This document shows positions 627-46,103 of a stretch of 64,000 nucleotides of DNA, in pieces. The position numbers and the translations under genes were made by a program. Each line of letters starts with the position of its first letter. Within the stretch, counting starts at the first letter, position 1. The DNA comes from Bolinopsis microptera (Eukaryota > Ctenophora > Tentaculata > Lobata > Bolinopsidae). The notes under the pieces are model-generated. The model saw only the letters and a list, made by a program, of their open reading frames with translations, did no database searches and was not told the DNA's origin. The stretch lies in contig NC_087075.1 of assembly GCF_026151205.1 (NCBI RefSeq), positions 1,481,911-1,545,910 on the forward strand. Direction: 5' to 3'.

Positions 627-1273
627 CTGACGTGACGAGTAACACAATGGTGGAGTGCAGATTCTGTCGGAAGCAGTTTAGGACTGACGCCGAGAAAAAG
701 GAACACGACAAAAAGTGCCAATCTGAGTAAGTGCAGGGTTTCATTTTATTTTCCAGTTTCATAGCCAGGAAATAGATAGTGCATAAATATATAGTGTATA
801 AATAGATAGTGCATAAAATCGGTATATTTGCATTACAGTCTTGCTCTTGCTGTACCGGCCCTGGCATGCAATATTCTCATTTTCTTGGAGAAATCTAGCA
901 TAATTCCAAGCTAGGAACTAGAAAACTTTGCTAATTAACAGTTCTTTAATCTAATTAATAAATTAAAGAACTGTTAATCAAGGAATTAAAGAACCGTAAA
1001 TTAAGGAATTAAGAACTGTTAATTAAGGGATTAAAGAATTGTTAATTAAGGGATTAAAGAATTGTAACTAATCTGCTCGTTTTCAGGCGCCACAAGTCGG
1101 ATAGGTTTGAACAATATGTACAGAGGTTGGGATACAGTAACCATAGAGACCTGGCTCAGGAAGCTATCAGGAAGTTGGGCCCCAACGCCTCCATTAACAG
1201 TCTGCTAGAATGCGTTATACAGATCGAGAAGAAGAGGAGTGGGGGGAGCACTGCGAATAAGGGGAGGAGATAA
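627..1273 (+). CDS. C-terminal two exons of a zinc-finger / UBA-like-domain protein
   Basis: Exon A is about 627-726 and exon B is 1087-1273. The donor AG|GTAAGT at 727 and the acceptor TTTTCAG|G at 1087 join in phase 2, and the frame then runs to TAA at 1271-1273. Exon A encodes a single zinc finger of the form C-x2-C-x12-H-x4-C (CRFCRKQF...HDKKC). It could begin at the TTAG acceptor ending at 626 or at the ATG at 647. Exon B encodes 61 residues with a small helical domain (FEQYVQRLGYSNHRDL, then IRKLGPNASINSLLECVI) and a basic tail ending KGRR. The LGY...KLG...N.LL pattern resembles the UBA-like domain of Regnase/N4BP1-type NYN ribonucleases, but no nuclease domain lies in the window, so that link is inference. 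Upstream exons are outside the window or not seen. The stop codon lies inside the first unit of the following tandem array. Confidence 0.65.
940..1076. repeat. 22-bp AT-rich intronic direct repeat
   Basis: Five or six imperfect copies of a unit containing GGATTAAAGAATTGTTAATTA fill the second half of the zinc-finger gene intron, just before the acceptor at 1087. Confidence 0.7.
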
Positions 1274-3440
1274 GCTGCCTACCCAGGAGATAAGCTGCCT
1301 ACTCAGGAGGAGATAAGCTGCCTACTCGGGAGGAGATAAGCTGCCTACTCAGGAGATAAGCTGCCTACTCAGGAGGAGATAAGCTGCCTACTCGGGAGAT
1401 AAGCTGCCTACTCAGGAGATAAGCTGCCTACTCAGGAGGAGATAAGCTGCCTACTCGGGAGGAGATAAGCTGCCTACTCAGGAGATAAGCTGCCTACCCA
1501 GGAGATAAGCTGCCTACTCAGGAGGAGATAAGCTGCCTACTCGGGAGATAAGCTGCCTACTCAGGAGATAAGCTGCCTACTCAGGAGGAGATAAGCTGCC
1601 TACTCGGGAGGAGATAAGCTGCCTACTCAGGAGATAAGCTGCCTACCCAGGAGGAGATAAGCTGCCTACTCGGGAGGAGATAAGCTGCCTACTCGGGAGG
1701 AGATAAGCTGCCTACTCAGGAGATAAGCTGCCTACTCAGGAGGAGATAAGCTGCCTACTCAGGAGATAAGCTGCCTACTCAGGAGGAGATAAGCTGCCTA
1801 CTCGGGAGGAGATAAGCTGCCTACTCAGGAGGAGATAAGCTGCCTACCCAGGAGATAAGCTGCCTACTCAGGAGGAGATAAGCTGCCTACTCAGGAGATA
1901 AGCTGCCTACTCAGGAGATAAGCTGCCTACTCAGGAGGAGATAAGCTGCCTACTCGGGAGGAGATAAGCTGCCTACTCAGGAGGAGATAAGCTGCCTACC
2001 CAGGAGATAAGCTGCCTACTCAGGAGGAGATAAGCTGCCTACTCGGGAGGAGATAAGCTGCCTACTCAGGAGATAAGCTGCCTACTCAGGAGGAGATAAG
2101 CTGCCTACTCGGGAGATAAGCTGCCTACTCAGGAGATAAGCTGCCTACTCAGGAGGAGATAAGCTGCCTACTCGGGAGGAGATAAGCTGCCTACTCAGGA
2201 GATAAGCTGCCTACCCAGGAGATAAGCTGCCTACTCAGGAGGAGATAAGCTGCCTACTCGGGAGATAAGCTGCCTACTCAGGAGATAAGCTGCCTACTCA
2301 GGAGGAGATAAGCTGCCTACTCAGGAGGAGATAAGCTGCCTACTCAGGAGGAGATAAGCTGCCTACCCAGGAGATAAGCTGCCTACTCAGGAGGAGATAA
2401 GCTGCCTACTCGGGAGATAAGCTGCCTACTCAGGAGGAGATAAGCTGCCTACTCGGGAGGAGATAAGCTGCCTACTCAGGAGGAGATAAGCTGCCTACTC
2501 AGGAGATAAGCTGCCTACCCAGGAGATAAGCTGCCTACTCAGGAGATAAGCTGCCTACTCAGGAGATAAGCTGCCTACTCGGGAGATAAGCTGCCTACTC
2601 AGGAGGAGATAAGCTGCCTACTCAGGAGATAAGCTGCCTACTCAGGAGGAGATAAGCTGCCTACTCAGGAGATAAGCTGCCTACCCAGGAGATAAGCTGC
2701 CTACTCAGGAGGAGATAAGCTGCCTACTCGGGAGGAGATAAGCTGCCTACTCAGGAGGAGATAAGCTGCCTACCCAGGAGATAAGCTGCCTACTCAGGAG
2801 GAGATAAGCTGCCTACTCGGGAGATAAGCTGCCTACCCAGGAGATAAGCTGCCTACTCAGGAGGAGATAAGCTGCCTACTCAGGAGATAAGCTGCCTACT
2901 CAGGAGGAGATAAGCTGCCTACTCGGGAGATAAGCTGCCTACCCAGGAGATAAGCTGCCTACTCAGGAGATAAGCTGCCTACTCAGGAGGAGATAAGCTG
3001 CCTACTCAGGAGATAAGCTGCCTACTCAGGAGGAGATAAGTTGCCTACCCAGGAGATAAGCTGCCTACTCAGGAGGAGATAAGTTGCCTACCCAGGAGAT
3101 AAGCTGCCTACTCAGGAGGAGATAAGCTGCCTACTCGGGAGATAAGCTGCCTACCCAGGAGATAAGCTGCCTACTCAGGAGGAGATAAGCTGCCTACTCG
3201 GGAGATAAGCTGCCTACCCAGGAGATAAGCTGCCTACCCAGGAGATAAGCTGCCTACTCGGGAGATAAGCTGCCTACTCAGGAGATAAGCTGCCTACTCG
3301 GGAGATAAGCTGCCTACCCAGGAGATAAGCTGCCTACCCAGGAGATAAGCTGCCTACCCAGGAGATAAGCTGCCTACTCGGGAGATAAGCTGCCTACTCG
3401 GGAGATAAGCTGCCTACTCGGGAGATAAGCTGCCTACTCA
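1261..3440. repeat. 20/23-bp minisatellite carrying a GATA motif in each unit
   Basis: About 100 tandem units of GGAGATAAGCTGCCTACTCA occur, many with an extra GGA (23 bp). T/C and A/G variants (ACTCAGG, ACTCGGG, ACCCAGG) are mixed along the array. The first unit includes the last codons and stop of the zinc-finger gene (GGAGGAGATAAG), so the array forms the start of its 3' untranslated region. Each unit holds AGATAAG, which matches the WGATAAR consensus of GATA factors. Whether that matters is not known. Confidence 0.95.
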
Positions 3441-5856: not shown

Positions 5857-8800
5857 GGGAGGTGAGTCAGGGTGGGAGGTGAGTCAGGGTGGGGGTGAGT
5901 CAGGGTGGGAGGTGAGTCAGGGTGGGAGGTGAGTCAGGGTGGGAGGTGAGTCAGGGTGGGAGTGAGTCAGGGTGGGAGGTGAGTCAGGGTGGGAGGTGAG
6001 TCAGGGTGGGAGGTGAGTCAGGGTGGGAGGTGAGTCAGGGTGGGAGGTGAGTCAGGGTGGGAGGTGAGTCAGGGTGGGAGGTGAGTCAGGGTGGGAGGTG
6101 AGTCAGGGTGGGGGGTGAGTCAGGGTGGGAGGTGAGTCAGGGTGGGGGTGAGTCAGGGTGGGGGTGAGTCAGGGTGGGAGATGAGTCAGGGTGGGAGGTG
6201 AGTCAGGGTGGGAGGTGAGCCAGGGTGGGAGGTGAGTCAGGGTGGGAGGTGAGTCAGGGTGGGAGGTGAGTCAGGGTGGGGGTGAGTCAGGGTGGCGGTG
6301 AGTCAGGGTGGGAGGTGAGTCAGGGTGGGAGGTGAGTCAGGGTGGGAGGTGAGTCAGGGTGGGAGGTGAGTCAGGGTGGGAGGTGAGTCAGGGTGGGAGT
6401 GAGTCAGGGTGGGTGGTGAGTCAGGGTGGGAGGTGAGTCAGGGTGGGAAGTGAGTCAGGGTGGGGGTGAGTCAGGGTGGGAGGTGAGTCAGGGTGGGAGG
6501 TGAGTCCGGGTGGGAGGTGAGTCAGGGTGGGATGTGAGTCAGGGTGGGAGTGAGTCAGGGTGGGTGGTGAGTCAGGGTGGGAGGTGAGTCAGGGTGGGAA
6601 GTGAGTCAGGGTGGGGTGAGTCAGTGTGGGAGGTGAGTCAGGGTGGGATGTGAGTCAGGGTGGGAGGTGAGTCAGGGTGGGAGGTGAGTCAGGGTGGGGG
6701 TGAGTCAGGGTGGGGGTGAGTCAGGGTGGGAGGTGAGTCAGGGTGGGGGTGAGTCAGGGTGGGAGGTGAGTCATGGTGGGGGTGAGTTAGGGTGGGAGGT
6801 GAGTCAGGGTGGGGTTGAGTCAGGGTGGGAGGTGAGTCAGGGTGGGAGCCGGGAGACGAGTCAGGGTGAGAGGTGAGTCAGGGTGGGAGGTGAGTCAGGG
6901 TGGAGGTGAGTCAGGGTGGGGGTGAGTCAGGGTTGTGGTGAGTCAGGGTGGAGGCGAGTCAGGGTGGGAGGCGAGTCAGGGTGGGAGGTGAGTCAGGGTG
7001 GGAGGTGAGTCAGGGTGGGAGGTGAGTCAGGGTGGGGGTGAGTCAGGGTGGAGGTGAGTCAGGGTGGGGGTTAGTCAGGGTGGGAGTGAGTCAGGGTGGG
7101 GGTGAGTCAGGGTGGGAGGTGAGTCAGGGTGGGAGGTGAGTCAGGGTGGGGGTGAGTCAGGGTGGGAGGTGAGTCAGGGTGGGTGGTGAGTCAGGGTGGG
7201 AGGTGAGTCAGGGTGGGAAGTGAGTCAGGGTGGGGGGTGAGTCAGGGTGGGAGCCGGGAGGTGAGTCAGGGTGAGAGGTGAGTCAGGGTGGGAGGTGAGT
7301 CAGGGTGGAGGTGAGTCAGGGTGGGGGTGAGTCAGGGTGGGAGGCGAGTCAGGGTGGGAGGTGAGTCAGGGTGGGAGGTGAGTCAGGGTGGGAGGTGAGT
7401 CAGGGTGGGGGTGAGTCAGGGTGGAGGTGAGTCAGGGTGGGGGTTAGTCAGGGTGGGAGTGAGTCAGGGTGGGGGTGAGTCAGGGTGGGAGGTGAGTCAG
7501 GGTGGGAGGTGAGTCAGGGTGGGGGTGAGTCAGGGTGGGAGGTGAGTCAGGGTGGGTGGTGAGTCAGGGTGGGATGTGAGTCAGGGTGGGAGTGAGTCAG
7601 GGTGGGTGGTGAGTCAGGGTGGGAGGTGAGTCAGGGTGGGAAGTGAGTCAGGGTGGGGTGAGTCAGGGTGGGAGGTGAGTCAGGGTGGGAGGTGAGTCAG
7701 GGTGGGAGGTGAGTCAGGGTGGGAGGTGAGTCAGGGTGGGGGTGAGACAGGGTGGGGGTGAGTCAGGGTGGGAGGTGAGTCAGGGTGGGGGTGAGTCAGG
7801 GTGGGAGGTGAGTCATGGTGGGGGTGAGTTAGGGTGGGAGGTGAGTCAGGGTGGGGTTGAGTCAGGGTGGGAGGTGAGTCAGGGTGGGAGCCGGGAGACG
7901 AGTCAGGGTGAGAGGTGAGTCAGGGTGGGAGGTGAGTCAGGGTGAAGGTGAGTCAGGGTGGGGGTGAGTCAGGGTGGGGGTGAGTCAGGGTGGGAGGTGA
8001 GTCAGGGTGGGAGGCGAGTCAGGGTGGGAGGTGAGTCAGGGTGGAGGTGAGTCAGGGTGGGGGTGAGTCAGGGTTGTGGTGAGTCAGGGTGGAGGCGAGT
8101 CAGGGTGGGAGGCGAGTCAGGGTGGGAGGTGAGTCAGGGTGGGAGGTGAGTCAGGGTGGGAGGTGAGTCAGGGTGGGGGTGAGTCAGGGTGGAGGTGAGT
8201 CAGGGTGGGGGTTAGTCAGGGTGGGAGTGAGTCAGGGTGGGGGTGAGTCAGGGTGGGAGGTGAGTCAGGGTGGGAGGTGAGTCAGGGTGGGGGTGAGTCA
8301 GGGTGGGAGGTGAGTCAGGGTGGGTGGTGAGTCAGGGTGGGAGGTGAGTCAGGGTGGGAAGTGAGTCAGGGTGGGGGGTGAGTCAGGGTGGGAGCCGGGA
8401 GGTGAGTCAGGGTGAGAGGTGAGTCAGGGTGGGAGGTGAGTCAGGGTGGAGGTGAGTCAGGGTGGGGGTGAGTCAGGGTTGTGGTGAGTCAGGGTGGAGG
8501 CGAGTCAGGGTGGGAGGCGAGTCAGGGTGGGAGGTGAGTCAGGGTGGGAGGTGAGTCAGGGTGGGAGGTGAGTCAGGGTGGTGGTGAGTCAGGGTGGAGG
8601 TGAGTCAGGGTGGGGGTTAGTCAGGGTGGGAGTGAGTCAGGGTGGGGGTGAGTCAGGGTGGGAGGTGAGTCAGGGTGGGAGGTGAGTCAGGGTGGGGGTG
8701 AGTCAGGGTGGGAGGTGAGTCAGGGTGGGTGGTGAGTCAGGGTGGGATGTGAGTCAGGGTGGGAGTGAGTCAGGGTGGGTGGTGAGTCAGGGTGGGAGGT

Positions 8801-10776
8801 GAGTCAGGGTGGGAAGTGAGTCAGGGTGGGGTGAGTCAGGGTGGGAGGTGAGTCAGGGTGGGAGGTGAGTCAGGGTGGGAGGTGAGTCAGGGTGGGAGGT
8901 GAGTCAGGGTGGGGGTGAGTCAGGGTGGGGGTGAGTCAGGGTGGGAGGTGAGTCAGGGTGGGGGTGAGTCAGGGTGGGAGGTGAGTCATGGTGGGGGTGA
9001 GTTAGGGTGGGAGGTGAGTCAGGGTGGGGTTGAGTCAGGGTGGGAGGTGAGTCAGGGTGGGAGCCGGGAGACGAGTCAGGGTGAGAGGTGAGTCAGGGTG
9101 GGAGGTGAGTCAGGGTGAAGGTGAGTCAGGGTGGGAGGTGAGTCAGGGTGAAGGTGAGTCAGGGTGGGGGTGAGTCAGGGTGGGAGGTGAGTCAGGGTGG
9201 GAGGCGAGTCAGGGTGGGAGGTGAGTCAGGGTGAGAGGTGAGTCAGGGTGGGAGGTGAGTCAGGGTGAAGGTGAGTCAGGGTGGGAGGTGAGTCAGGGTG
9301 AAGGTGAGTCAGGGTGGGGGTGAGTCAGGGTGGGAGGTGAGTCAGGGTGGGAGGCGAGTCAGGGTGGGAGGTGAGTCAGGGTGGAGGTGAGTCAGGGTGG
9401 GAGGTGAGTCAGGGTGGGGGTGAGTCAGGGTGGAGGTGAGTCAGGGTGGGAGGTGAGTCAGGGTGAAGGTGAGTCAGGGTGGGAGGTGAGTCAGGGTGAA
9501 GGTGAGTCAGGGTGGGGGTGAGTCAGGGTGGGAGGTGAGTCAGGGTGGGAGGCGAGTCAGGGTGGGAGGTGAGTCAGGGTGGAGGTGAGTCAGGGTGGGA
9601 GGTGAGTCAGGGTGGGGGTGAGTCAGGGTGGAGGTGAGTCAGGGTGGGGGTGAGTTAGGGTGGAGGTGAGTCAGGGTTGGAGGTGAGTCAGGGTGGAGGT
9701 GAGTCAGGGTGGGAGGTGAGTCAGGGTGGAGGCGAGTCAGGGTGGGAGGCGAGTCAGGGTGGGAGGTGAGTCAGGGTGGGAGGTGAGTCAGGGTGGGAGG
9801 TGAGTCAGGGTGGGGGTGAGTCAGGGTGGAGGTGAGTCAGGGTGGGGGTTAGTCAGGGTGGGAGTGAGTCAGGGTGGGGGTGAGTCAGGGTGGGAGGTGA
9901 GTCAGGGTGGGAGGTGAGTCAGGGTGGGGGTGAGTCAGGGTGGGAGGTGAGTCAGGGTGGGTGGTGAGTCAGGGTGGGAGGTGAGTCAGGGTGGGAAGTG
10001 AGTCAGGGTGGGGGGTGAGTCAGGGTGGGAGCCGGGAGGTGAGTCAGGGTGAGAGGTGAGTCAGGGTGGGAGGTGAGTCAGGGTGTAGGTGAGTCAGGGT
10101 TGGAGGTGAGTCAGGGTGGGGGGTGAGTCAGGGTGGGAGGTGAGTCAGGGTGGGAGGTGAGTCAGGGTGTAGGTGAGTCAGGGTGGGGGTGAGTCAGGGT
10201 GGGGGTGAGTCAGGGTGGGAGGTGAGTCAGGGTGGGAGGTGAGTCAGGGTGGGAGGTGAGTCAGGGTGGGGGTGAGTCAGGGTGGGGGTGAGTCAGGGTG
10301 GGAGGTGAGTCAGGGTGGGAGGTGAGTCAGGGTGGGAGGTGAGTCAGGGTGGGAGGTGAGTCAGGGTGGAGGTGAGTCAGGGTGGGGGTGAGTCAGGGTT
10401 GTGGTGAGTCAGGGTGGAGGCGAGTCAGGGTGGGAGGCGAGTCAGGGTGGGAGGTGAGTCAGGGTGGGAGGTGAGTCAGGGTGGGAGGTGAGTCAGGGTG
10501 GTGGTGAGTCAGGGTGGAGGTGAGTCAGGGTGGGGGTTAGTCAGGGTGGGAGTGAGTCAGGGTGGGGGTGAGTCAGGGTGGGAGGTGAGTCAGGGTGGGA
10601 GGTGAGTCAGGGTGGGAGTGAGTCAGGGTGGGAGTGAGTCAGGGTGGGAGGTGAGTCAGGGTGGGGGTGAGTCAGGGTGGAGGTGAGTCAGGTTGGGAGG
10701 TGAGTCAGGGTGGGAGTGAGTCAGGGTGGGAGGTGAGTCAGGGTGGGGGTGAGTCAGGGTGGGGGTGAGTCTGGGT
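5857..10776. repeat. 4.9-kb minisatellite of 17-bp unit GTGAGTCAGGGTGGGAG
   Basis: Roughly 290 units of GTGAGTCAGGGTGGGAG with 15-18-bp variants (GGGGGTGAGTC, GGAAGTGAGTC, GGAGCCGGGAG). Every unit holds TGAGTCA (the AP-1/TRE consensus), the donor consensus AG|GTGAGT, and G-runs. There is higher-order structure: the same run of variant units, marked by GAGTCATGG, GAGTTAGGG and GAGCCGGGAGACG, recurs at about 6,694, 7,736 and 8,909. The near-identical 60-codon open frames there are by-products of this. Confidence 0.97.
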
Positions 10777-13319: not shown

Positions 13320-13450
13320 TGGAGTCACATGATAAGTGGAGTGCCGAAGTGGGTGAAAGTGCTGCAGGATGCCCACATCATAATGCCGCGCCCCCACCAC
13401 CACATCCATCACATCTCCCCTCACGAGACTTACTTCTGTATCACTGGCGG
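13320..13450 (+). CDS. PEDS1: PEDS1/TMEM189 (Kua) exon with catalytic His motifs
   Basis: Plasmanylethanolamine desaturase makes the vinyl-ether bond of plasmalogens in the endoplasmic reticulum membrane. It is a multi-pass, His-box di-iron enzyme related to plant FAD4. The exon starts after TATTTCAG and ends at GG|GTAAGT (phase 2). It encodes WSHMISGVPKWVKVLQDAH, then PRPHHHIHHISPHETYFC. This matches the family's C-terminal core, with its paired HH motifs and the PHETYFCIT-G-WLNYPLE block, which continues in the next exon at 20,813. The N-terminal exons were not located. The intron that follows is 7.4 kb and carries a complete LINE in the same orientation plus two tandem arrays. Identification is strong because three exons join in phase to reproduce the family C-terminus. 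Confidence 0.9.
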
Positions 13451-13649
13451 GTAAGTACAAACTACAATATTTAGTGATATCATTTCTGTTATTTTTTCAA
13501 ATCTATATTTTTACGGTCATGAAATGAGTATACTTCGTTTAATCAATTGATTGATCGAATAAATATTCTGCGTCGAATATGATATTGCCGCTTATATTAA
13601 CTCTATACTGTGGGCCCTGCCCGTCTCAAATGCGCGGAAATATTGTGGC

Positions 13650-14017
13650 AAAAGCCACTGTCAGTATAATCATTATATCTTTATAAAAGCCACTATCAGT
13701 ATAATCATTATATCTTTATAAAAGCCACTATCAGAATATTCATTATATCTTTATAAAAGCCACTATCAGTATAATCAGTATATCTTTATAAAAGCCACTA
13801 TCAGTATATCTTTATAAAAGCCACTATCAGTATAATCATTATATCTTTATAAAAGCCACTATCAGTATAATCATTATATCTTTATAAAAGCCACTATCAG
13901 TATAATCAGTACATCTTTATAAAAGCCACTATCAGTATATCTTTATAAAAGCCACTATCAGTATAATCATTATATCTTTGTAAAAGCCACTATCAGTATA
14001 ATCATTATATCTTTATG
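13650..14017. repeat. 33-34-bp intronic minisatellite
   Basis: About eleven copies of a unit reading AAAAGCCACTATCAGTATAA followed by TCATTATATCTTTAT, some shortened by loss of the middle. It lies in the PEDS1 intron just upstream of the LINE. Confidence 0.93.
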
Positions 14018-14256: not shown

Positions 14257-15639
14257 ATGGATCTGAATTCTGTTACCAATGTTTTAAACTCGTTTTCATT
14301 AAAAGAGCTGAAAGCTCTTAAGGCCAGTGTTGAGAATGTCATGAAACTTAAGAGGGATTCTGTTAAATGCGAGGACTTCTTGGAGTTGCATTCAGATTTT
14401 GTTCAAAACAAGAGTGTTCAACATGGTACGTTGATGTCTGAACTTGAAACACTTATGGCCAAGCAAACTGCTGTGAAAACTGCCACAAAGTGGCTCACTT
14501 CCACTGGAGAAGAATATGTATGGTCTTCCTCAAATGGACACACCACGACTAAGGAGCCAATCGATATTTTAAATTATCCTGGGATATCAGAGCTTATGCA
14601 TGATATCAACTCCAAGTTTGGCTGCAAGCTAAACTCATGCCTAGCAAGCATGTACAAGTCTGGTTCTTGTGCAACTAGGTACCACAACGACGACGAGGTG
14701 TCTCTTGACCAGTCGCAAGGTATTTATGTAGTTTCATTTGGAGCTGAGAGGACCCTCGACATAATTCCAGAAAATGGGGATAAGCGATGTAACAGTAAAT
14801 GCCATATCACCCCAAAGGACTGTAGTTTGTATATTATGAAACCGGGGTGTCAGGAATATTGTCTTCACAAGGTTCGTGCAGAGAGATCAGCTAAGGAGAC
14901 TCGGTATAGCTTATCTTTTCGCTGCCAGATACCGAAGACAGATACAAATGTAGTCAGGGTGCAGAATGTCTTCACTACAATTCCTATGCCGCCCACCACC
15001 ACCTCAACACCAACCCTCTACTACCGAAATGCTCCAAGAAAACCGAAGAGCAGGAAAACCACTGTCCTGTTTGGTACGTCAATGACAAAATTCGTACGGA
15101 CAAATAGGTTGGGATTCCGGGGAAGAAAAGTAATCAATGTGTCCCAAGGTGGTGCAAAAATTAGAGACATCACTGAAAATATTCAGCATTTTCATAAAAC
15201 TCATGCAGCTGCAGAAGCTGACGATATTGAAAAGATTATATTGAGTGTTGGTACAAATGACATAAAACATTCTAAGTATGGGGTTCAGTTCCTTAGGAAG
15301 TATCTTAATGACTTAATTGACACCACTAAGCAGTTATTTCCCGCTGCAATTATAATTATCCAATGTTGTCTTCCTATTAAGTGTTTATATTCCTACATAG
15401 CAAAGAATGTTCTAGATTTTAATAATCTACTTAAAGACTTATGCCTAAATAATAATTGCGTGTTCTTAGACTGTTTCTCAGACTTTTTAACTCGAGACTT
15501 TAGATCCTGTAATGAACTTCTATACCATGATTGGCTTCATCTCAACATGAGAGGAGTAGGTTTACTGTCCACTTGGCTTAAGTTTGTTGTAAACCAACAC
15601 AGTTTTGACAGGGTTGTAAATAATCTTCTGGGAATTTAA
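14257..15639 (+). CDS. LINE ORF1: AlkB-like dioxygenase fused to SGNH esterase
   Basis: The 460-residue protein has three parts. Residues about 10-75 are helical and charged, probably coiled coil. Residues about 85-225 match AlkB-family 2-oxoglutarate/Fe(II) dioxygenases: LNSCLASMYKSG (125-136), then RYHNDDE giving the HxD pair H143/D145, SFGAERT (160-166), LYIMKPG (191-197), the second iron ligand H204 in CLHKV, and RYSLSFR giving R216 and R222 with the family's R-x5-R spacing. A Pro/Thr-rich linker (240-265) follows. Residues 266-445 are an SGNH hydrolase: GTS with S275, QGG near 298, VGTND with N334, and HDWLH with D425 and H428. Esterase-bearing ORF1s are known in CR1-type LINEs. AlkB domains repair or demethylate nucleic acids, so a role in RNA demethylation or protection of the element RNA is inference. 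All catalytic positions look intact. Confidence 0.85.
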   Translation: MDLNSVTNVLNSFSLKELKALKASVENVMKLKRDSVKCEDFLELHSDFVQNKSVQHGTLMSELETLMAKQTAVKTATKWLTSTGEEYVWSSSNGHTTTKEPIDILNYPGISELMHDINSKFGCKLNSCLASMYKSGSCATRYHNDDEVSLDQSQGIYVVSFGAERTLDIIPENGDKRCNSKCHITPKDCSLYIMKPGCQEYCLHKVRAERSAKETRYSLSFRCQIPKTDTNVVRVQNVFTTIPMPPTTTSTPTLYYRNAPRKPKSRKTTVLFGTSMTKFVRTNRLGFRGRKVINVSQGGAKIRDITENIQHFHKTHAAAEADDIEKIILSVGTNDIKHSKYGVQFLRKYLNDLIDTTKQLFPAAIIIIQCCLPIKCLYSYIAKNVLDFNNLLKDLCLNNNCVFLDCFSDFLTRDFRSCNELLYHDWLHLNMRGVGLLSTWLKFVVNQHSFDRVVNNLLGI

Positions 15640-15736
15640 ATCTTTGATCTTTTCTTTCATTTAATATTTTGATTAAGACGTTGCGCCTAAAATTAAAACT
15701 CAAACAAATCTCTGATTTAATCTTTTTCTCAATTTT

Positions 15737-18700
15737 ATGCCTCCTATTTCAGGTACATTCGGTCACTGCCCATTTTCCCATATGTTAGACAATGAATCGT
15801 TTAGACTTAGAATAGGTCTTTTTGCATGCAAAAGGCCTCGTACACAGTCAAGAAATGCACATATACATATCAACACGTTTATACCTAACAAAATTTACAC
15901 ATTTAAGTCTCCATGCACCCCACACATCAACTACAATTATCATAATCATATGTTTCTCTTCTATTCTCTTATCATGACTTACTTTCTCCCAATTCTTCTC
16001 TCCACGACTAGGTCCATGAACACTGTACTCCCCCTAGATTCTAATATTCATTCCTCTCTACTCCTTGACAGCCCACGTTATCTTATACCATTTCTTGCTT
16101 GCTCCCACATCAAACTTTTCTTTGTAATCATCTCCTCATGGTTTATAAGAAATGTTCTTCTCCCTGGTAAGATGAATAGAGCCAAGTATTCCAGCCGCCT
16201 CAGGCGTCTAGTCTCTTTATTCATTCTTTGGGTTTTCTCTCTTAACTTTCTTTTGATAACTCTTGTTAATCCTTCTATGCTTAATCCAGGTCCCAACTCC
16301 ATATCTGTACTCTACCAAAATGTCCAAGGTCTTATTCCTTTCAGTAACCTAAGCTCCTCCCATCCCCTTCTTGATGGTAATAAGATTTCCGAACTTCAAT
16401 CCTTTGCTAACATAGAGCAGCCTGACATAATTGCCCTAAATGAGACTTGGCTCAAAAAATCTATTTCTAGCAACGAAATCTTTCCTTCTTCTCAATATGA
16501 AATCTTCCGCAATGACCGCACGAGAAAGACTCATCCTCAAGATCCTAATAACCCTAAAAAGTTTAGGGAAAATGGAGGTGGTGTTCTTTTGGCTGTTCGG
16601 TCTGATCTCGATGCCACTACAACCCGACTACCAGTTAGCCTAGGTGCAGAAATGCTTGCCGTTAAAATTGCTTTTCCTAACAAAGAGAGTATTGTAATCT
16701 GTACTTGTTATAGAGTAGGAACTCTTGGGTTACCTAATCATGATGTCATAGTTAGTTATATTCGCAAGCTAGTTTCCAAAAAGAATCCCCCTAAAATCTA
16801 TGTTATTGGTGATTTTAATCTCCCCCATACAGACTGGCTATCTTCATCCAGTACCGTACCTATTGAGCAATCCTTCATAGATTCTTTCAGTGATCTTTCT
16901 CTCTCCCAGTTGATCACATCACCCACCCATAAAAGTGGTAATACATTAGACATTCTTCTCAGTAATTATGATAACACAATCGATAACTTGAATGTCTGTG
17001 ATCCTCATTCCGTGTGCAAATCTGATCATTTTCCTGTCACTTTTTCAATTAAAAGCTCCTTTTCCCGCAAGAAAACTCCTAAACGTAAAATCTATAATTA
17101 TAAGAAAGCAAACTGGGACATGATTAATCGTGAATTATGCTCGATTAATTGGCAAGTCCTAGAATGCCTAGATCCTGATTCGTCTTGGAAGTTAGTTAAA
17201 GACTGCATTATGAATTTAGTTGATATACATATTCCTAAAGTAACTATTAAATCAGAGTTTCAACCCCCGTGGTTCGATAGTGAACTTTTTTCCTCATGCC
17301 GTAAAAAAGATAGACTCAGAGCTAAATTTAAAATTTCTGGTTCTATTTCTGATGAGTTAAAGTTTGTTACTAGCCGTAAAGATTTTAAGAGGCTTTCATC
17401 AGCCAAAATAAGAGACAATCTTTTCAATAGTGATGATCCAGCGCTTATAACTAAGAAGTTTTGGTCACATGTTAAGTATAAATCTAACTCCTGCCGTATT
17501 CCTAATTGTGTTAGTTATTCTGGACAGCTTCGGTTCAAACCCAAAGCTCAAGCTGAACTTTTCAATTCTTTCTTTTATAACCAGTTTTCGGATCCTTCAC
17601 TTTATGACACTGACATCTCCTATGTCAATGATGTTGATTTTGATATTGACTTCGATCATCGGGATGTTCGTAAGCTTCTTTCAAATATTAATTCAAATAA
17701 AGCCCAGGGACCAGATGGCATACACGGTAAAATTCTCAAAAATTGTTCCGTAGGTTTAGCTTACCCTCTAACATGCATTTTTCGTGGATCTTACAACAGC
17801 GGCTACATTCCACAAGAATGGAAACTTGCAAATGTTGTCCCAATATTTAAGAAAGGTAAGAAAAGTGAGGTTGAAAACTATAGACCAATATCCCTTACTT
17901 GTTTAGTCATGAAAGTTTTTGAGCGCATTGTTAAACGTAAACTGCTTTCTTTGACTAGTACCCTTCTTGATCCCAGGCAGCATGGTTTTCTAGAGCACAA
18001 GTCATGCACAACCAATATGGTTGACTTTTGTGATAGCCTGGCATTGTCTCTTAACGAAAACATCATCAATCATGTTGTGTATTTTGATTTTGCTAAGGCA
18101 TTTGATTCTGTAAATCATGATATCCTTCTTCATAAGCTAAAGACCTTATATAACATTGATGGTACACTTCTCAAATTTCTTACCAATTACCTTCAAGGCC
18201 GTTACCAAAGAGTGGTTATTGGTAATGAGATGTCATCTACCCTCTCAGTTAATTCTGGTGTCCCCCAGGGCTCTATTCTTGGTCCCTTACTTTTTGTATT
18301 GTTTATCAATGATATTCCTCTTGGCCTTTCGGATAATACTGATATTGTTTTGTATGCCGATGATACAAAAATCTGGCGTAAAATACATTCATCTTCTGAT
18401 AATACTAATTTACAAATGGATATAGACTATCTCTCTGACTGGGCACTAAGAAACAAAATGCGATTCCATCCAGCAAAATGTAAAGTGCTTATTGTTTCAG
18501 GAAAACCATCTTTATCTCCTCCATTCGCATATAATCTTGATGGCTCTCCTCTTGTGTATGTAGAGTTAGAAAAAGATCTTGGAGTCGATGTTACTCCTAA
18601 GCTTAGTTGGAATAGTCAGTGCGACAGAATTTATACTAAGGCCTGCCAACAACTTGGTATGGTCAGAAGAGATGGCCATATTGTCATTGATCAGAAACGT

Positions 18701-19252
18701 CGCCGGGCGCTTTACCTCTCCCTGGTTCGTAGCCAATTCGAAAATTGTTCCATAATCTGGCGCCCTTGTAATAAATCACTTAGTGATAAATTAGAAAGTC
18801 TCCAAAAGAGAGCTATTAAATGGATTCTGTCTGAAGAGGGCCGCAGTTATCCACCTGAGCAATATGTCAAAAAGTGCAAGCTTGTCGACATTCTCCCTTT
18901 GTCTCAAAAGTTTGACTTGAATGATCTTATTTTTTTCCACAAAGTTCTTAACAATTTAATTCCTGTATCGCTGCCTCACTATCTCTCTTTATATCAGGGC
19001 ACTTCTCGACTAAGACGTTGCCACCTCGACAGTCTGTCTATTGTGTCATCAATTTTACCTAAGTTAAGTCAGAATTCACACACCACATGTACCTCAAATA
19101 GCCCACTGGCAAAATCATTTTTCTACAGAACCCATATACTGTGGAATGGACTCCCTTTACAGGTAAGACAGATTGTGTCTACTAGTCTTTTCAAAGCTGA
19201 GGTCACTAAGCATCTCTGGAAATGTTTATTGGACAGTGAAACAACAGTCTAG
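15737..19252 (+). CDS. LINE ORF2: APE endonuclease and reverse transcriptase
   Basis: This is the 1,171-residue replicase for target-primed reverse transcription. Residues 1-180 are an unusual leader with several hydrophobic stretches and no recognised domain; the real start could be a later Met such as M181. The endonuclease spans about 187-432: YQNVQG (N195), NETWL (E236), GDFN (358-361) and SDH (429-431). The reverse transcriptase spans about 680-950: FKKGKKSEVENYRPISL, motif A FDFAKAFD (D784/D790), motif B GVPQGSILGPL (from 841) and motif C YADD (873-876). The C-terminal region (QKRAIKWIL...FFYRTHILWNGLP...) is also found in two decayed fragments elsewhere in the window (27.7 kb and 49.0 kb). 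All key residues are present, so the element may be active. Confidence 0.95.
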   Translation: MPPISGTFGHCPFSHMLDNESFRLRIGLFACKRPRTQSRNAHIHINTFIPNKIYTFKSPCTPHINYNYHNHMFLFYSLIMTYFLPILLSTTRSMNTVLPLDSNIHSSLLLDSPRYLIPFLACSHIKLFFVIISSWFIRNVLLPGKMNRAKYSSRLRRLVSLFILWVFSLNFLLITLVNPSMLNPGPNSISVLYQNVQGLIPFSNLSSSHPLLDGNKISELQSFANIEQPDIIALNETWLKKSISSNEIFPSSQYEIFRNDRTRKTHPQDPNNPKKFRENGGGVLLAVRSDLDATTTRLPVSLGAEMLAVKIAFPNKESIVICTCYRVGTLGLPNHDVIVSYIRKLVSKKNPPKIYVIGDFNLPHTDWLSSSSTVPIEQSFIDSFSDLSLSQLITSPTHKSGNTLDILLSNYDNTIDNLNVCDPHSVCKSDHFPVTFSIKSSFSRKKTPKRKIYNYKKANWDMINRELCSINWQVLECLDPDSSWKLVKDCIMNLVDIHIPKVTIKSEFQPPWFDSELFSSCRKKDRLRAKFKISGSISDELKFVTSRKDFKRLSSAKIRDNLFNSDDPALITKKFWSHVKYKSNSCRIPNCVSYSGQLRFKPKAQAELFNSFFYNQFSDPSLYDTDISYVNDVDFDIDFDHRDVRKLLSNINSNKAQGPDGIHGKILKNCSVGLAYPLTCIFRGSYNSGYIPQEWKLANVVPIFKKGKKSEVENYRPISLTCLVMKVFERIVKRKLLSLTSTLLDPRQHGFLEHKSCTTNMVDFCDSLALSLNENIINHVVYFDFAKAFDSVNHDILLHKLKTLYNIDGTLLKFLTNYLQGRYQRVVIGNEMSSTLSVNSGVPQGSILGPLLFVLFINDIPLGLSDNTDIVLYADDTKIWRKIHSSSDNTNLQMDIDYLSDWALRNKMRFHPAKCKVLIVSGKPSLSPPFAYNLDGSPLVYVELEKDLGVDVTPKLSWNSQCDRIYTKACQQLGMVRRDGHIVIDQKRRRALYLSLVRSQFENCSIIWRPCNKSLSDKLESLQKRAIKWILSEEGRSYPPEQYVKKCKLVDILPLSQKFDLNDLIFFHKVLNNLIPVSLPHYLSLYQGTSRLRRCHLDSLSIVSSILPKLSQNSHTTCTSNSPLAKSFFYRTHILWNGLPLQVRQIVSTSLFKAEVTKHLWKCLLDSETTV

Positions 19253-19677: not shown

Positions 19678-20475
19678 GCGACAATTGACCCCAGTGTAAT
19701 TACATAGGGGTCAATTGTCGGGGGGTCAATTGTCGGGGGGTCAATTTTCGTACTAAACCCTAGATTTCGCGACAATTGACCCCAGTGTAATTACATAGGG
19801 GTCAATTGTCGGGGGGTCAATTGTCGGGGGGTCAATTTTCGTACTAAACCCTAGATTTCGCGACAATTGACCCCAGTGTAATTACATAGGGGTCAATTGT
19901 CGGGGGGTCAATTGTCGGGGGGTCAATTTTCGTACTAAACCCTAGATTTCGCGACAATTGACCCCAGTGTAATTACATAGGGGTCAATTGTCGGGGGGTC
20001 AATTGTCGGGGGTCAATTTTCGTACTAAACCCTAGATTTCGCGACAATTGACCCCAGTGTAATTACATAGGGGTCAATTGTCGGGGGGTCAATTGTCGGG
20101 GGGTCAATTTTCGTACTAAACCCTAGATTTCGCGACAATTGACCCCAGTGTAATTACATAGGGGTCAATTGTCGGGGGGTCAATTGTCGGGGGGTCAATT
20201 TTCGTACTAAACCCTAGATTTCGCGACAATTGACCCCAGTGTAATTACATAGGGGTCAATTGTCGGGGGGTCAATTGTCGGGGGGTCAATTTTCGTACTA
20301 AACCCTAGATTTCGCGACAATTGACCCCAGTGTAATTACATAGGGGTCAATTGTCGGGGGGTCAATTGTCGGGGGGTCAATTTTCGTACTAAACCCTAGA
20401 TTTCGCGACAATTGACCCCAGTGTAATTACATAGGGGTCAATTGTCGGGGGGTCAATTGTCGGGGGGTCAATTGT
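19678..20475. repeat. 91-bp hairpin-bearing satellite
   Basis: About nine near-identical 91-bp units. Each contains CGACAATTGACCCC and, 14 bases on, its reverse complement GGGGTCAATTGTCG, followed by two more GGGGTCAATT blocks and GTACTAAACCCTAGATTTCG. Each unit can therefore fold into a perfect stem. The array sits between the LINE 3' end and the penultimate PEDS1 exon. Copies differ by single bases only, which suggests recent expansion or homogenisation. Confidence 0.97.
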
Positions 20476-20812
20476 CGCGGTACCATATCTAACAATAGTT
20501 CGTTATACAAAGTCGGCTAACTTTGGCGAAGGCTTCAGCGTCTTTAATTTTAACCATTTTAAAGGCTTCACTGTCTTTAATTCATCGCAACCCGTCTTTG
20601 AATTTGCTGGTAGAAGTAATGTCAGTGTGTTAAATGTGCTTTATTACATCCGATCTATTTCGAGACTTGTAGTTGTTGTGGCGTCTTTAATTTTTCAATT
20701 TTGAAGCCTTGCCGTCTTTAATTTTGTTCATTTGAAGGCTTTGTCTTTATAACTTGCGTCTTTATAAAACAAACTAAGTGTATCTAACCAATAAATAATT
20801 ATTGTCTTGCAG

Positions 20813-23116: not shown

Positions 23117-24235
23117 TTACATAGCAGTGTTGCTATGGAAACAGTAACCACCTACTGTTAATATCGTAACAGCAGCCGTCAAAGTGAGAGTAGAACTGAA
23201 AGAGGAAGAGGCAGAAGAAGTAGCCTCCTTTAAAAGAAATTGGGTGTGATTCAGAGTTGCGGAGACATTCTGTAGTTCAACATCGGTACTCTTCAGTTCG
23301 ACTGCAGTTTCTTTGAGTCTTGTCTCTTTTTCGAGCAGCTCTTTTTCAGTGCTATTCAGTTTGTTCGCCGTGCTATTCAGATCTGATTTCGATCGCTCCA
23401 GTTGTAGCACGGTACTATTGAGTTTCTGTTCTTTAATTTCCAAGTTATATCGGCAGTTTCCTTTTTCCAGCTTAGTCCCAGCCAATTCCTCTCCAGTGCT
23501 ATTCAGTTCCTTTATATAACCGCAGTCTGTCTTGTACTCTACAATATTCCCAAACCTTGATTGCAACAGAAAGTCCTCCCACCTGATTCCTATAAGTTCA
23601 GCGTATGTTTCCTCTAAATCTGAGCACCTGTCCCTTGCCATTTCCTGGATAACGCTATGTTTCAACTTAGTGCTGAACATATTGAGTTTGTAGATCTCCC
23701 CTCCAAACATTATCGTTTGCGTTCTCAGTTGAGGTGATGTCCAGAATTTCTGCATTGAACCCAGAACTATAGCTCCTCCCTGCTTCAACACCCTCCCAGG
23801 AGAAGTGGGCAGAGTATTCACCAGTTCACCATTCACATACACCTCTCTATTCTCTGTAGCGTTACTCCAGGCCACACATGTGTGGAACCAGGTTCCCGGG
23901 GGTACATTATACTCGCTCCGTACATCTGCGTTGTAGTTGAAAGTTCTGGTTTGCTTACCTTCGTCTGTCATTGTAATCTCATAAGGGGAGCTCCTCAGAT
24001 AGTAAGAGAACCAAGTTGGGAGATCTAGATGGTTCTGTAACTTCTTTATCCAGGCACACACAGTAAACTGTGTAATGAAGGGGGACATGTCAGGGTCCTG
24101 GTAGTACACAAACTCGTGGGGGCTGTGCCAGAACCAAAGTGCGTTATAACGCCGTGGTGAACCTCCTTCAATGCTGTGTAGTAGTAGGAATACAGTGGAC
24201 AAGGAGATCAGAACCTCCTTCAGGCTTACAATCAT
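23117..24235 (-). CDS. Secreted or anchored pentraxin/LamG-like protein with glycosylated coiled coil
   Basis: Single-exon gene of 372 codons. Residues 1-24 form a signal peptide. Residues about 30-220 are a concanavalin/pentraxin-like jelly roll: FTVCAWIK with C60, GTWFHTCVAW with C120 (the usual pentraxin cysteine pair), YVNGELV and GGAIVLGS. A charged coiled coil spans about 240-340, in which the tripeptide NST recurs (N245, N273, N287, N294), with further sequons at N323 and N329. A Ser-rich linker and a hydrophobic C-terminus (about 350-366) suggest a GPI or membrane anchor. Such a protein would act outside the cell as a lectin or recognition molecule; that role is inferred from the fold. 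No intron is apparent, which is unusual beside its intron-rich neighbours and could mean a lineage-specific or retrocopied gene. Confidence 0.85.
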   Translation of the reverse strand: MIVSLKEVLISLSTVFLLLHSIEGGSPRRYNALWFWHSPHEFVYYQDPDMSPFITQFTVCAWIKKLQNHLDLPTWFSYYLRSSPYEITMTDEGKQTRTFNYNADVRSEYNVPPGTWFHTCVAWSNATENREVYVNGELVNTLPTSPGRVLKQGGAIVLGSMQKFWTSPQLRTQTIMFGGEIYKLNMFSTKLKHSVIQEMARDRCSDLEETYAELIGIRWEDFLLQSRFGNIVEYKTDCGYIKELNSTGEELAGTKLEKGNCRYNLEIKEQKLNSTVLQLERSKSDLNSTANKLNSTEKELLEKETRLKETAVELKSTDVELQNVSATLNHTQFLLKEATSSASSSFSSTLTLTAAVTILTVGGYCFHSNTAM

Positions 24236-27149: not shown

Positions 27150-28090
27150 TTTTTTTATTTCAAAATTCAAATAAACTTTACATCAATGTATTACAGTTAT
27201 ATTCAATAAAAAGACCACAATATCTCCTGTGAAGCAAAAACATGGAAAAAGAGAGCTAGAAAAATATTCATGATACTCAACACTACCAGACTCAGCTGGA
27301 GTGAGAAACAAATTGTAAAAACATCAACGTAAAATTTATTTCGGCTGAACCAAAACACGGTGGTAAGACCATAATAACATTGGTGCCGACCCTACATAAA
27401 ATCATTAATAAATAATCAAGAGAACAAATTTAAATGTATACGATACCTTCTTGCTACTACTCCACAAACTTACACGACATAACAACAAAATAACATAATT
27501 AAATAATATTATAATAAAACAATCTACAATCTAGCCACTCACGTACTGCGTGACGCGCTTGTTTCGGGTTGTTTCATAAAAGAAAAAACGGCGCGTTCTA
27601 CTGCAGGTGCGAGGGGCAAATTATAGAGAGTATGACATTCATAAAGTAAAATATATATATAATAATATTCCATGATGGGCCATCTAATCAGGCCAGCATA
27701 CGTCAGAAGACCAGAGAAATTCAGTTAGCTTTGTTTTGAAAATAGAAATTTTCTCAGTCTGTCTAACATAGGCTGGCAGTGCATTCCACAGAAGCATTGT
27801 TCTATAAAAGAAGCTGTTTCTGAAACTATCGCAGTTTGGTTTAACAAANNNNNNNNNNNNNNNNNNNNNNNNNNNNNNNNNNNNNNNNNNNNNNNNNNNN
27901 NNNNNNNNNNNNNNNNNNNNNNNNNNNNNNNNNNNNNNNNNNNNNNNNGTTTTAGGGAGCCAATAGTGACAACACACTTTTTGTGGTGTAATAAACCAGT
28001 AAAATTGGTAAATCCAAGATTTCTATACTTTTCCTTTTTTCTTTTTTCTATAAGACCCGTTCTTATCAACTTATAAATGCGCCCTGAGTA
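27150..28090 (-). pseudogene. 5'-truncated LINE remnant interrupted by an assembly gap
   Basis: On the minus strand the peptide FRNSFFYRTMLLWNALPAYV, followed by RQTEKISIFKTKLTEFLW (27,684-27,848), aligns by eye with the ORF2 C-terminus of the complete LINE at 14-19.7 kb. A second piece lies on the other side of the gap (27,949-28,069, ...RKKEKYRNLGFTNFTGLLHH). An AT-rich tail runs down to a T-run at about 27,150, which would be the poly-A-like 3' end. It is related to, but clearly diverged from, the intact copy. Confidence 0.75.
27849..27948. other. Assembly gap of 100 N
   Basis: Exactly 100 N, the conventional size for a scaffold gap of unknown length. Open frames that cross it have no meaning. 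Confidence 1.
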
Positions 28091-31678: not shown

Positions 31679-32113
31679 TATGAGGCAGAGGCAGAGGCAG
31701 AGGCAGAGGCAGAGGCAGAGGCAGAGGCAGAGGCAGAGGCAGAGGCAGAGGCAGAGGCAGAGGCAGAGGCAGAGGCAGAGGCAGAGGCAGAGGCAGAGGC
31801 AGAGGCAGAGGCAGAGGCAGAGGCAGAGGCAGAGGCAGAGGCAGAGGCAGAGGCAGAGGCAGAGGCAGAGGCAGAGGCAGAGGCAGAGGCAGAGGCAGAG
31901 GCAGAGGCAGAGGCAGAGGCAGAGGCAGAGGCAGAGGCAGAGGCAGAGGCAGAGGCAGAGGCAGAGGCAGAGGCAGAGGCAGAGGCAGAGGCAGAGGCAG
32001 AGGCAGAGGCAGAGGCAGAGGCAGAGGCAGAGGCAGAGGCAGAGGCAGAGGCAGAGGCAGAGGCAGAGGCAGAGGCAGAGGCAGAGGCAGAGGCAGAGGC
32101 AGAGGCAGAGGCA
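31679..32113. repeat. (GAGGCA)n perfect hexanucleotide array
   Basis: About 72 uninterrupted copies of GAGGCA. The unit contains no stop in several frames, so long Glu-Ala, Arg-Gln and Pro-Leu open frames appear. They have no other coding signal and I do not call them genes. Confidence 0.98.
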
Positions 32114-32571: not shown

Positions 32572-35405
32572 TTTACATTACAAGGTTTACAAGGTTTATG
32601 AAATAGCGAACTTCACCACTACTACTACTCTACATTACACGGTTTATAAAATAGCGAACTTCACCACTACTACTCTACATTACAAGGTTTATGAAATAAC
32701 GAACTTCACCACTACTACTCTACATTACAAGGTTTATAAAATAACGAACTTCACCACTACTACTCTACATTACAAGGTTTATGAAATAACGAACTTCACC
32801 ACTACTACTCTACATTACACGGTTTATAAAATAACGAACTTCACCACTACTACTCTACATTACAAGGTTTATAAAATAACGAACTTCACCACTACTACTC
32901 TACATTACAAGGTTTATAAAATAACGAACTTCACTACTACTACTCTACATTACAAGGTTTATAAAATAACGAACTTCACCACTACTACTCTACATTACAA
33001 GGTTTATAAAATAACGAACTTCACCACTACTACTCTACATTACAAGGTTTATAAAATAACTAACTTCACCACTACTACTCTCCATTACAAGGTTTACAAA
33101 ATAACTAACTTCACCACTACTACTCTCCATTACAAGGTTTATAAAATAACTAACTTCACCACTACTACTCTACATTACAAGGTTTATAAAATAACTAACT
33201 TCACCACTACTACTACTCTCCATTACAAGGTTTATAAAATAACTAACTTCACCACTACTACTCTACATTACAAGGTTTATAAAATAACTAACTTCACCAC
33301 TACTACTCTCCATTACAAGGTTTACAAAATAACTAACTTCACCACTACTACTACTCTACATTACAAGGTTTATAAAATAACTAACTTCACCACTACTACT
33401 CTCCATTACAAGGTTTATAAAATAACGAACTTCACCACTACTACTCTCCATTACAAGGTTTATAAAATAACTAACTTCACCACTACTACTCTACATTACA
33501 AGGTTTATAAAATAACTAACTTCACCACTACTACTCTCCATTACAAGGTTTATAAAATAACGAACTTCACCACTACTACTTAACATTACAAGGTTTACAA
33601 GGTTTATAAAATAACGAACGTCACCACTACTACTCTACATTACAAGGTTTATAAAATAACGAACTTCACCACTACTACTCTACATTACAAGGTTTATAAA
33701 ATAACGAACTTCACCCTACTACTCTACATTACAAGGTTTATAAAATAACGAACGTCACCACTACTACTCTACATTACAAGGTTTATAAAATAACGAAGTT
33801 CACCACTACTACTCTACATTACAAGGTTTATAAAATAACGAACTTCACCCTACTACTCTACATTACAAGGTTTATAAAATAACGATCTTCACCACTACTA
33901 CTCTACATTACAAGGTTTATAAAATAACGAACTTCACCACTACTACTCTACATTACAAGGTTTATAAAATAACGATCTTCACCACTACTACTCTACATTA
34001 CAAGGTTTATAAAATAACGAACTTCACCCTACTACTCTACATTACAAGGTTTATAAAATAACGATCTTCACCACTACTACTCTACATTACAAGGTTTATA
34101 AAATAACGAACTTCACCACTACTACTCTACATTACAAGGTTTATAAAATAACGATCTTCACCACTACTACTCTACATTACAAGGTTTATAAAATAACGAA
34201 CTTCACCACTACTACTCTACATTACAAGGTTTATAAAATAACGATCTTCACCACTACTACTCTACATTACAAGGTTTATAAAATAACGAACTTCACCACT
34301 ACTACTCTACATTACAAGGTTTATAAAATAACGAACTTCACCACTACTACTCTACATTACAAGGTTTATAAAATAACGAACTTCACCACTACTACTCTAC
34401 ATTACAAGGTTTATAAAATAACGAACTTCACCACTACTACTCTACATTACAAGGTTTATAAAATAACGATCTTCACCACTACTACTCTACATTACAAGGT
34501 TTATAAAATAACTAACTTCACCACTACTACTCTACATTACAAGGTTTATAAAATAACGAACTTCACCACTACTACTACTCTACATTACAAGGTTTACAAG
34601 GTTTATAAAATAACGAACTTCACCACTACTACTTTACATTACAAGGTTTATAAAATAACGAACTTCACCACTACTACTTAACATTACAAGGTTTACAAGG
34701 TTTATAAAATAACGAACTTCACCACTACTACTCTAGATTACAAGGTTTATAAAATAACGAACTTCACCACTACTACTCTACATTACAAGGTTTATAAAAT
34801 AACGAACTTCACCACTACTACTCTACATTACAAGGTTTATAAAATAACGAACTTCACCACTACTACTCTACATTACAAGGTTTATAAAATAACGAACTTC
34901 ACCACTACTACTCTACATTACAAGGTTTACAAGGTTTATAAAATAACGAACTTCACCACTACTACTCTACATTACAAGGTTTATAAAATAACGAACTTCA
35001 CCACTACTACTCTACATTACAAGGTTTACAAGGTTTATAAAATAACGAACTTCACCACTACTACTCTACATTACAAGGTTTATAAAATAACGAACTTCAC
35101 CACTAATACTCTACATTACAAGGTTTATAAAATAACGAACTTCACCACTACTACTCTACATTACAAGGTTTATAAAATAACGAACTTCACCACTACTACT
35201 CTACATTACAAGGTTTATAAAATAACGAACCTCACCACTACTACTCTACATTACAAGGTTTATAAAATAACGAACTTCACCACTACTACTCTACATTACA
35301 AGGTTTATAAAATAACGAACTTCACCACTACTACTCTCCATTACAAGGTTTATAAAATAACGAACTTCACCACTACTACTCTACATTACGTTAAGGTTTA
35401 CACTA
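32572..35405. repeat. 45-bp minisatellite, 2.8 kb
   Basis: About 62 units reading ACATTACAAGGTTTATAAAA then TAACGAACTTCACCACTACTACTCT in two steps. Variants include GATC for GAAC, TAAC for CGAAC, an extra ACT triplet, and a 9-bp doubling of AAGGTTTAC. Variant types are clustered: CTAAC variants sit at about 33.06-33.5 kb and GATC variants at about 33.9-34.5 kb, showing block-wise spread. Confidence 0.96.
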
Positions 35406-45300: not shown

Positions 45301-46103
45301 ACCAGTTAACCTGATAGCTTGTAAGCTTGGTACCTGAGCACTGTCAGCAGTGTGTTCTGATGTTGTTGTACCAGTTAACCTGATAGCTTGTAAGCTTGGT
45401 ACCTGAGCACTGTCAGCAGTGTGTTGTGATGTGTTGTACCTGAGCACTGTCAGCAGTGTGTTCTGATGTTGTTGTACCTGAGCACTGTCAGCAGTGTGTT
45501 CTGATGTTGTTGTACCTGAGCACTGTCAGCAGTGTGTTCTGATGTTGTTGTACCTGAGCACTGTCAGCAGTGTGTTCTGATGTTGTTGTACCTGAGCACT
45601 GTCAGCAGTGTGTTCTGATGTTGTTGTACCTGAGCACTGTCAGCAGTGTGTTCTGATGTTGTTGTACCTGAGCACTGTCAGCAGTGTGTTCTGATGTGTT
45701 GTTGTACCTGAGCACTGTCAGCAGTGTGTTCTGATGTTGTTGTACCAGTTAACCTGATAGCTTGTAAGCTTGGTACCTGAGCACTGTCAGCAGTGTGTTC
45801 TGATGTTGTTGTACCAGTTAACCTGATAGCTTGTAAGCTTGGTACCTGAGCACTGTCAGCAGTGTGTTGTGATGTGTTGTTGTACCTGAGCACTGTCAGC
45901 AGTGTGTTCTGATGTTGTTGTACCAGTTAACCTGATAGCTTGTAAGCTTGGTACCTGAGCACTGTCAGCAGTGTGTTCTGATGTTGTTGTACCAGTTAAC
46001 CTGATAGCTTGTAAGCTTGGTACCTGAGCACTGTCAGCAGTGTGTTCTGATGTTGTTGTACCAATTAACCTGATAGCTTGGTACCTGAGCACTGTCAGCA
46101 GTG
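42373..46103. repeat. 61-bp minisatellite with 38-bp and 69-bp variants, 3.7 kb
   Basis: The unit contains CCAGTTAACCTGATAGCTTG, GTACCTGAGCACTGTCAGCA and GTGTGTTCTGATGTTGTTGTA-type blocks. Many units lack the CCAGTTAACCTGATAGC block (38 bp) and others double GCTTGTAAGCTTG (69 bp). A five- to six-unit pattern of variants repeats between 43.3 and 44.9 kb. Minus-strand open frames through it are repeat products. Confidence 0.96.

Follow-up and report, generated by a model that had tools for sequence, protein, structure and literature searches.

Does the first open reading frame of a LINE in the ctenophore Bolinopsis microptera encode, besides the esterase familiar from such proteins, a second enzyme acting on nucleic acid? 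An earlier note on this DNA had described ORF1 as uniting an AlkB-type dioxygenase with an SGNH esterase and had named the residues on which either activity would depend. The reading frame is indeed present and intact in the window (the whole stretch of 64,000 nucleotides analysed here, contig NC_087075.1), and the segment L125-G136, H143/D145, H204, R216/R222 with their R-x5-R spacing, S275, N334, D425 and H428 all stand at the numbers given for them. Papers are cited below by PMC accession.

Layout of the element

The element is an intact two-ORF LINE, that is, a non-LTR retrotransposon whose ORF2 encodes an endonuclease and a reverse transcriptase (Table 1). ORF1 precedes this ORF2 on the same strand, an arrangement seen in this window only. 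At a threshold of E 1, Pfam detects no RNase H family in ORF2, and endonuclease plus reverse transcriptase without RNase H is the ORF2 composition of the CR1/L2-like Jockey superfamily, in which I would probably place the element, an assignment made by general resemblance only. A search for repeats common to both element ends gave no convincing target-site duplication; among the matches listed, the end-to-end ones span 8-12 bases only and none lies at plausible ends. For ORF2, 2340 relatives score 1e-10 or better, the nearest being 96% identical, and 25 among the best 120 of these are 70-80% identical.

Table 1. Features of the LINE, with positions in the 64,000-nt window
Feature	Position	Strand	Description and basis
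ORF1, 460 aa	14257..15639	+	N-terminal helices - AlkB-type 2OG/Fe(II) dioxygenase - disordered linker - SGNH hydrolase; ORF list and predicted structure
ORF1 residues 1-35	14257..14361	+	helices 3-11 and 15-34 (DSSP of the model); poorly conserved
AlkB domain, ORF1 residues 36-226	14362..14934	+	predicted Fe ligands H143, D145, H204; predicted 2OG arginines R216, R222; E147 opposite ABH2 Glu175
Low-confidence linker, ORF1 residues 233-258	14953..15030	+	pLDDT <50 in the model
SGNH hydrolase domain, ORF1 residues 265-448	15049..15600	+	S275, G299, N334, D425, H428
ORF1-ORF2 gap, 97 bases	15640..15736	+	ORFs in different frames; coordinates
ORF2, 1171 aa, intact	15737..19252	+	endonuclease and reverse transcriptase; Pfam RVT_1 1.2e-28, Exo_endo_phos_2 8e-13
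3' UTR and approximate 3' end AATAAAAAA	19253..19670	+	just before the 91-bp tandem array; sequence, repeat search

Two enzyme domains in ORF1

With ORF1 alone as query, Pfam gives a clear GDSL_2 match (6.4e-12) and a weak one for the AlkB part, where 2OG-FeII_Oxy scores 0.0043, under the cut-off, and PF13532 is absent from the list; the AlkB claim therefore needed better tests. As a single sequence searched against PDB chains with phmmer, ORF1 matches ALKBH3 at E 2.7e-9, and a profile of 92 family proteins (ORF1 and its relatives, see below) finds ALKBH3 (3.5e-19), ALKBH2 (2.2e-17) and the zebrafish LINE esterase 4c1b (4.6e-13). The predicted structure of ORF1 holds both an AlkB domain, with its double-stranded beta-helix, and an SGNH domain, at a pTM of 0.53 that leaves the relative placement of the domains uncertain. 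Profiles and predicted structure thus bear out the fusion of the two enzymes in one LINE ORF1, and the double-stranded beta-helix, whose absence would have spoken against the AlkB assignment, is there. One detail of the earlier description has to be revised: the AlkB domain is real, but residues 125-222 are too narrow a frame for it, as the model extends it to the bounds in Table 1. Judged by sequence and by the model, the resemblance to AlkB is beyond chance. The best matches of the domain by phmmer, profile and fold comparison are ALKBH2/3, not ALKBH5; I call it an AlkB-family domain with an ALKBH2/3-like fold and not a member of ALKBH2/3, because the base-pocket residues of ABH2 are not kept. 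The two helices at the N-terminus of the model (residues 3-11 and 15-34) fall in a stretch that could possibly serve in self-association.

The SGNH domain carries its catalytic residues, as the esterase ORF1s of LINEs (Type IV) do. Over the rows of the family alignment with a letter at the site, the serine S275 is kept in 90/91, N334 in 90/90 and H428 in 88/88, and the aspartate D425 is not strict (71/87). Most probably it functions like its counterparts in other esterase ORF1s. The Pfam model OSK (Oskar) is matched by 14 of the 92 ORF1-family proteins at 0.01 or better (best 2e-8). Oskar binds RNA, and a possible link between LINE ORF1s and Oskar may deserve a look. Oskar has also been named as a non-catalytic SGNH protein.(PMC3905857)

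Conservation in the family

A search with ORF1 returned 91 relatives at E 1e-3 or better, of which 72 cover at least 90% of the query, with identities from 96% down to 25%. As the full ORF1 served as query, proteins with both domains were favoured, and the 91 relatives therefore do not give the share of SGNH ORF1s that are without AlkB. At E 0.01 or better, Pfam recognises PF13532 (AlkB type) in 67 and GDSL_2 in 90 of the 92 proteins. Profiles built from the family itself find AlkB in 91/92 (absent from P0047, 261 aa) and SGNH likewise in 91/92 (absent from P0063, 257 aa), so that the relatives do not lack the AlkB segment, which would have marked it as a chance insertion; this detection is not independent evidence, because the tested proteins other than P0077, which was left out, helped to build the profiles. 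P0077 itself (706 aa) has two AlkB domains in tandem (2e-30 and 4e-34) followed by SGNH, the first AlkB domain with the HxDxE motif and the second with a Cys at the Glu position. For P0086, the automatic annotation already carries both domain names.

The HxD...H and R-x5-R residues are nearly invariant: H143 is kept in 86/86 rows with letters, D145 in 86/86, H204 in 91/91, R216 in 90/91 and R222 in 91/91, and E147, which follows the HxD motif, in 85/86. Of the 191 columns of the domain, 14 reach a conservation of 97% or more, and all six AlkB residues are among these (P 4.8e-8). Eighty rows have a letter at each of the nine named catalytic sites of both domains, and 63 of them are intact throughout; of the remaining 17, 16 differ at D425 (one of them also at S275) and one at R216.

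Trees of the AlkB and the SGNH domains, made from 77 full-length rows with 15 shorter or gapped rows left out, have 36 of 74 splits in common, whereas 200 label shuffles give 0.26 on average and never more than 2. Pairwise identities in the two domains are correlated at 0.85. By both results the domains have largely travelled together, and much of the non-matching half of the splits may reflect poor resolution. Computation thus shows both folds, the conservation of both active sites over the 91 relatives and a joint descent of the domains.

Residues 78-230 alone retrieved 22 proteins from 47 candidates, all already among the ORF1 relatives, and no host relative turned up at the sensitivity of this word-based search. 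Four scans of viral contigs (three with ORF1 queries, one with ORF2) gave no confirmed relative, genome contigs gave two bacterial SGNH matches only, and plasmids no match at 1e-8.

Base pocket and substrate

In the profile alignment E147 falls opposite Glu175 of ABH2, an acidic residue after HxD as in the ALKBH2/3 type. In ABH2 this glutamate contacts m1A and m3C, and its replacement by Ala abolishes activity; activity is lost without Phe124 just as without Glu175.(PMC12295762) The same alignment places Phe124, Tyr122 and Arg110 of ABH2 opposite K99, T97 and G84, so that the base pocket of ABH2 is not reproduced, and the position of K99 holds K in 53, N in 16 and H in 13 of 86 rows. As the pocket differs and Phe124 is needed in ABH2, an assignment to m1A/m3C is not secure. 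Y87 is kept in 81/82 family rows and the position of W89 is aromatic in 81/82; these two may do the work of the base pocket in another way. Phe102 of ABH2 inserts into duplex DNA. Its position is Ala in ORF1, with an aromatic residue nearby in 2/81 family rows, which suggests that the substrates would be single-stranded. Editing of methylation on the element's own RNA or on host nucleic acid, as had been put forward for this ORF1, may be possible for the predicted enzyme.

Proposed role and alternative explanations

The reading that I favour, to which I give just short of an even chance, is that an ORF1p with AlkB and SGNH domains binds the RNA of its own element and removes methyl groups of the m1A/m3C type that would block reverse transcription, its esterase acting with lipids or membranes, and that fuller copies result. 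I infer catalysis from the conserved residues, and the substrate is a guess. Binding would be in cis; the AlkB domain would oxidatively strip N-methyls from the Watson-Crick face, be they natural or derived from damage, which would otherwise halt reverse transcription or cause it to miscode; the esterase would come into play during RNP assembly, in line with proposals made for other SGNH ORF1ps; and target-primed reverse transcription, before or during which the template would be cleaned, would yield more complete copies. m1A and m3C hinder reverse transcriptases, and a LINE that copies several kilobases of its own RNA would profit from an RNA-bound demethylase. With an R2 reverse transcriptase, AlkB treatment removed m1A and m3C and raised the capture of most 3' tRNA halves, its effect on the capture of intact tRNA being modest.(PMC12140624) For esterase ORF1s, a function involving lipids or membranes has been put forward.(PMC3905857; PMC4120745) More broadly, and with somewhat less than an even chance, a diverse LINE lineage might carry an enzyme that cleans its RNA template, its ORF1p being a repair chaperone beyond a nucleic-acid chaperone.

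The main rival is m6A erasure, in which the AlkB domain would demethylate the transcripts of the element and let them escape host RNA surveillance, as proposed for an orchid Ty3/Gypsy element; I consider this unlikely. ORF1p is expected on element RNA by analogy with other ORF1ps, and a different target base is possible because the stacking residue of the ABH2 type is not kept. However, the nearest folds and sequences are those of ALKBH2/3 rather than ALKBH5, and ALKBH5 is not known to have the acidic residue that the family keeps at E147 in 85/86 rows. The AlkB protein of the orchid Gypsy element has been found to bind RNA and to take the methyl group off m6A in vitro (PMC9289625), but in human L1 it is m6A that promotes and ALKBH5 that suppresses retrotransposition.(PMC7873242)

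Alternatively, the substrate could be DNA, with alkyl lesions or methyl marks being cleared from target DNA, from nascent cDNA or from the genomic copies of the element, which seems improbable to me. ALKBH2/3 act on DNA and the fold match to the dsDNA enzyme ABH2 is equally high, but no aromatic residue lies near the ABH2 Phe102 position in 79/81 rows, and ORF1ps are proteins of the RNA side in known LINEs. Knockout of Alkbh1 in mouse ES cells leads to more N6-methyladenine and other repressive marks on young L1s (PMC4982230), so that an element could benefit from the removal of a DNA mark; this mark and ALKBH1 are also treated in PMC6015446.

It is distinctly improbable that the AlkB fold is mainly a module for binding nucleic acid in place of the RRM/CTD that other ORF1ps have, its catalysis being incidental. 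AlkB folds do bind nucleic acid, and esterase ORF1ps have been described as having no defined RNA-binding domain (PMC3905857), but the columns with the metal and 2OG residues belong to the best conserved in the domain, over proteins down to about 25% identity, and binding alone needs no such conservation.

That ORF1 is a host gene or part of another mobile element, preceding ORF2 by coincidence, is very unlikely. The distant relatives P0075, P0077 and P0078 do have longest contigs of 14-60 kb; against this, ORF1 and the intact EN-RT ORF2 share a strand in this window and are only 97 bases apart, with ORF1 first; SGNH ORF1s are a known LINE type, the LINE ORF1 esterase 4c1b is among the relatives of the profile, and for 19 of the 91 ORF1 relatives the longest contig measures 5-7 kb, roughly the length of a LINE. 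Linkage of ORF1 and ORF2 judged by coinciding sizes of longest contigs, comparing the 91 ORF1 relatives with the best 120 of 2340 ORF2 relatives, gave 3 coincidences against a null mean of 1.2, which is not significant (P about 0.13). Finally, a functionless chance similarity or recent capture in one copy, for which the sub-threshold Pfam score of the query might speak, has practically no probability in view of 91 relatives with nearly all the same layout, a near-invariant active site and matching domain trees; mere chance resemblance was rejected on family, fold and active-site conservation.

Relation to known systems

Esterase ORF1s are known in CR1, L2 and RTEX elements (PMC3905857, PMC4120745), and related esterases in Penelope-like elements.(PMC5408684) Like Type IV ORF1s such as that of zebrafish ZfL2-1 (4c1b), the present ORF1 has a C-terminal SGNH domain with an S/N/D-x-x-H site and is followed by an EN-RT ORF2 (PMC3905857, PMC4120745); unlike these, which are described as combining a coiled coil with the esterase, it carries a full AlkB domain after the N-terminal helices and ahead of the esterase. 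By term search, neither paper mentions AlkB in its main text. I rate this ORF1 as Type IV-like, with a further enzyme that is conserved.

AlkB has been described from RNA viruses and from a single LTR lineage.(PMC9289625) The latter, the Ogre-like Ty3/Gypsy element of Phalaenopsis, likewise encodes an AlkB protein with intact iron and 2OG sites, but there an LTR element carries, as a separate ORF, a recently captured plant ALKBH5 homolog (PMC9289625), whereas here a LINE carries an ALKBH2/3-like domain fused to an esterase in a divergent family. Plant RNA viruses and giant viruses have AlkB domains of the same fold, which are among the top BFVD matches but sit in viral polyproteins or single genes, not in a LINE ORF1. 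Human ALKBH3 and ALKBH2 agree in fold, in iron and 2OG residues and in the HxDxE motif, but are host repair enzymes, and the base pocket of ABH2 is not kept here. Capture of an SGNH gene by a retroelement also occurred in the bdelloid Vesta (GDSL ORF3) and Athena (GDSL), which are LTR or Penelope-like elements (PMC5408684); a term search of the main text of that paper finds no mention of AlkB.

The earlier impression that such a fusion is not a standard LINE layout agrees with the literature searched, since no such layout was found in the papers listed. By title and start of abstract, no report of AlkB in a LINE or other non-LTR element was found among the best-ranked matches, bioRxiv preprints, most subscription papers and Repbase being outside the scope of this search. 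The orchid Gypsy paper (PMC9289625) alone came close, and the AlkB homologs mentioned in PMC6015446, PMC4982230 and PMC6327408 are host genes. Within that literature, this would be the first type of non-LTR retrotransposon described as encoding a nucleic-acid dioxygenase. Its conservation over a divergent family sets the trait apart from a curiosity of a single copy. It raises a testable question, namely whether base methylation of retrotransposon RNA limits LINE copying and whether elements have evolved their own answer, and it could supply a natural pair of reverse transcriptase and demethylase for the sequencing of modified RNA.

Genomic surroundings

The element lies in sense within an intron of a lipid-desaturase gene (Pfam Lipid_desat 2.2e-15), which I take to be PEDS1/TMEM189-like; one flanking exon is at 13320-13451 and the next likely begins at about 20814, the latter by motif search only. 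A 35-bp minisatellite (11 copies at 13650-14016) is found just ahead of the element, and a 91-bp minisatellite (19678-20477, 8.8 copies, 99% alike) begins directly at its apparent 3' end. Elsewhere in the window, 48701-49461 and 27711-27815 (-) hold decayed remnants of distantly related LINE ORF2s, and 23117-24235 (-) is an ORF of 372 aa with a Laminin_G_3/pentaxin domain. Long tandem arrays, (GAGGCA)72 among them, are abundant in the window (5857-10776, 1264-3439, 31682-32113, 32587-35389, 38586-40989 and 42385-46105).
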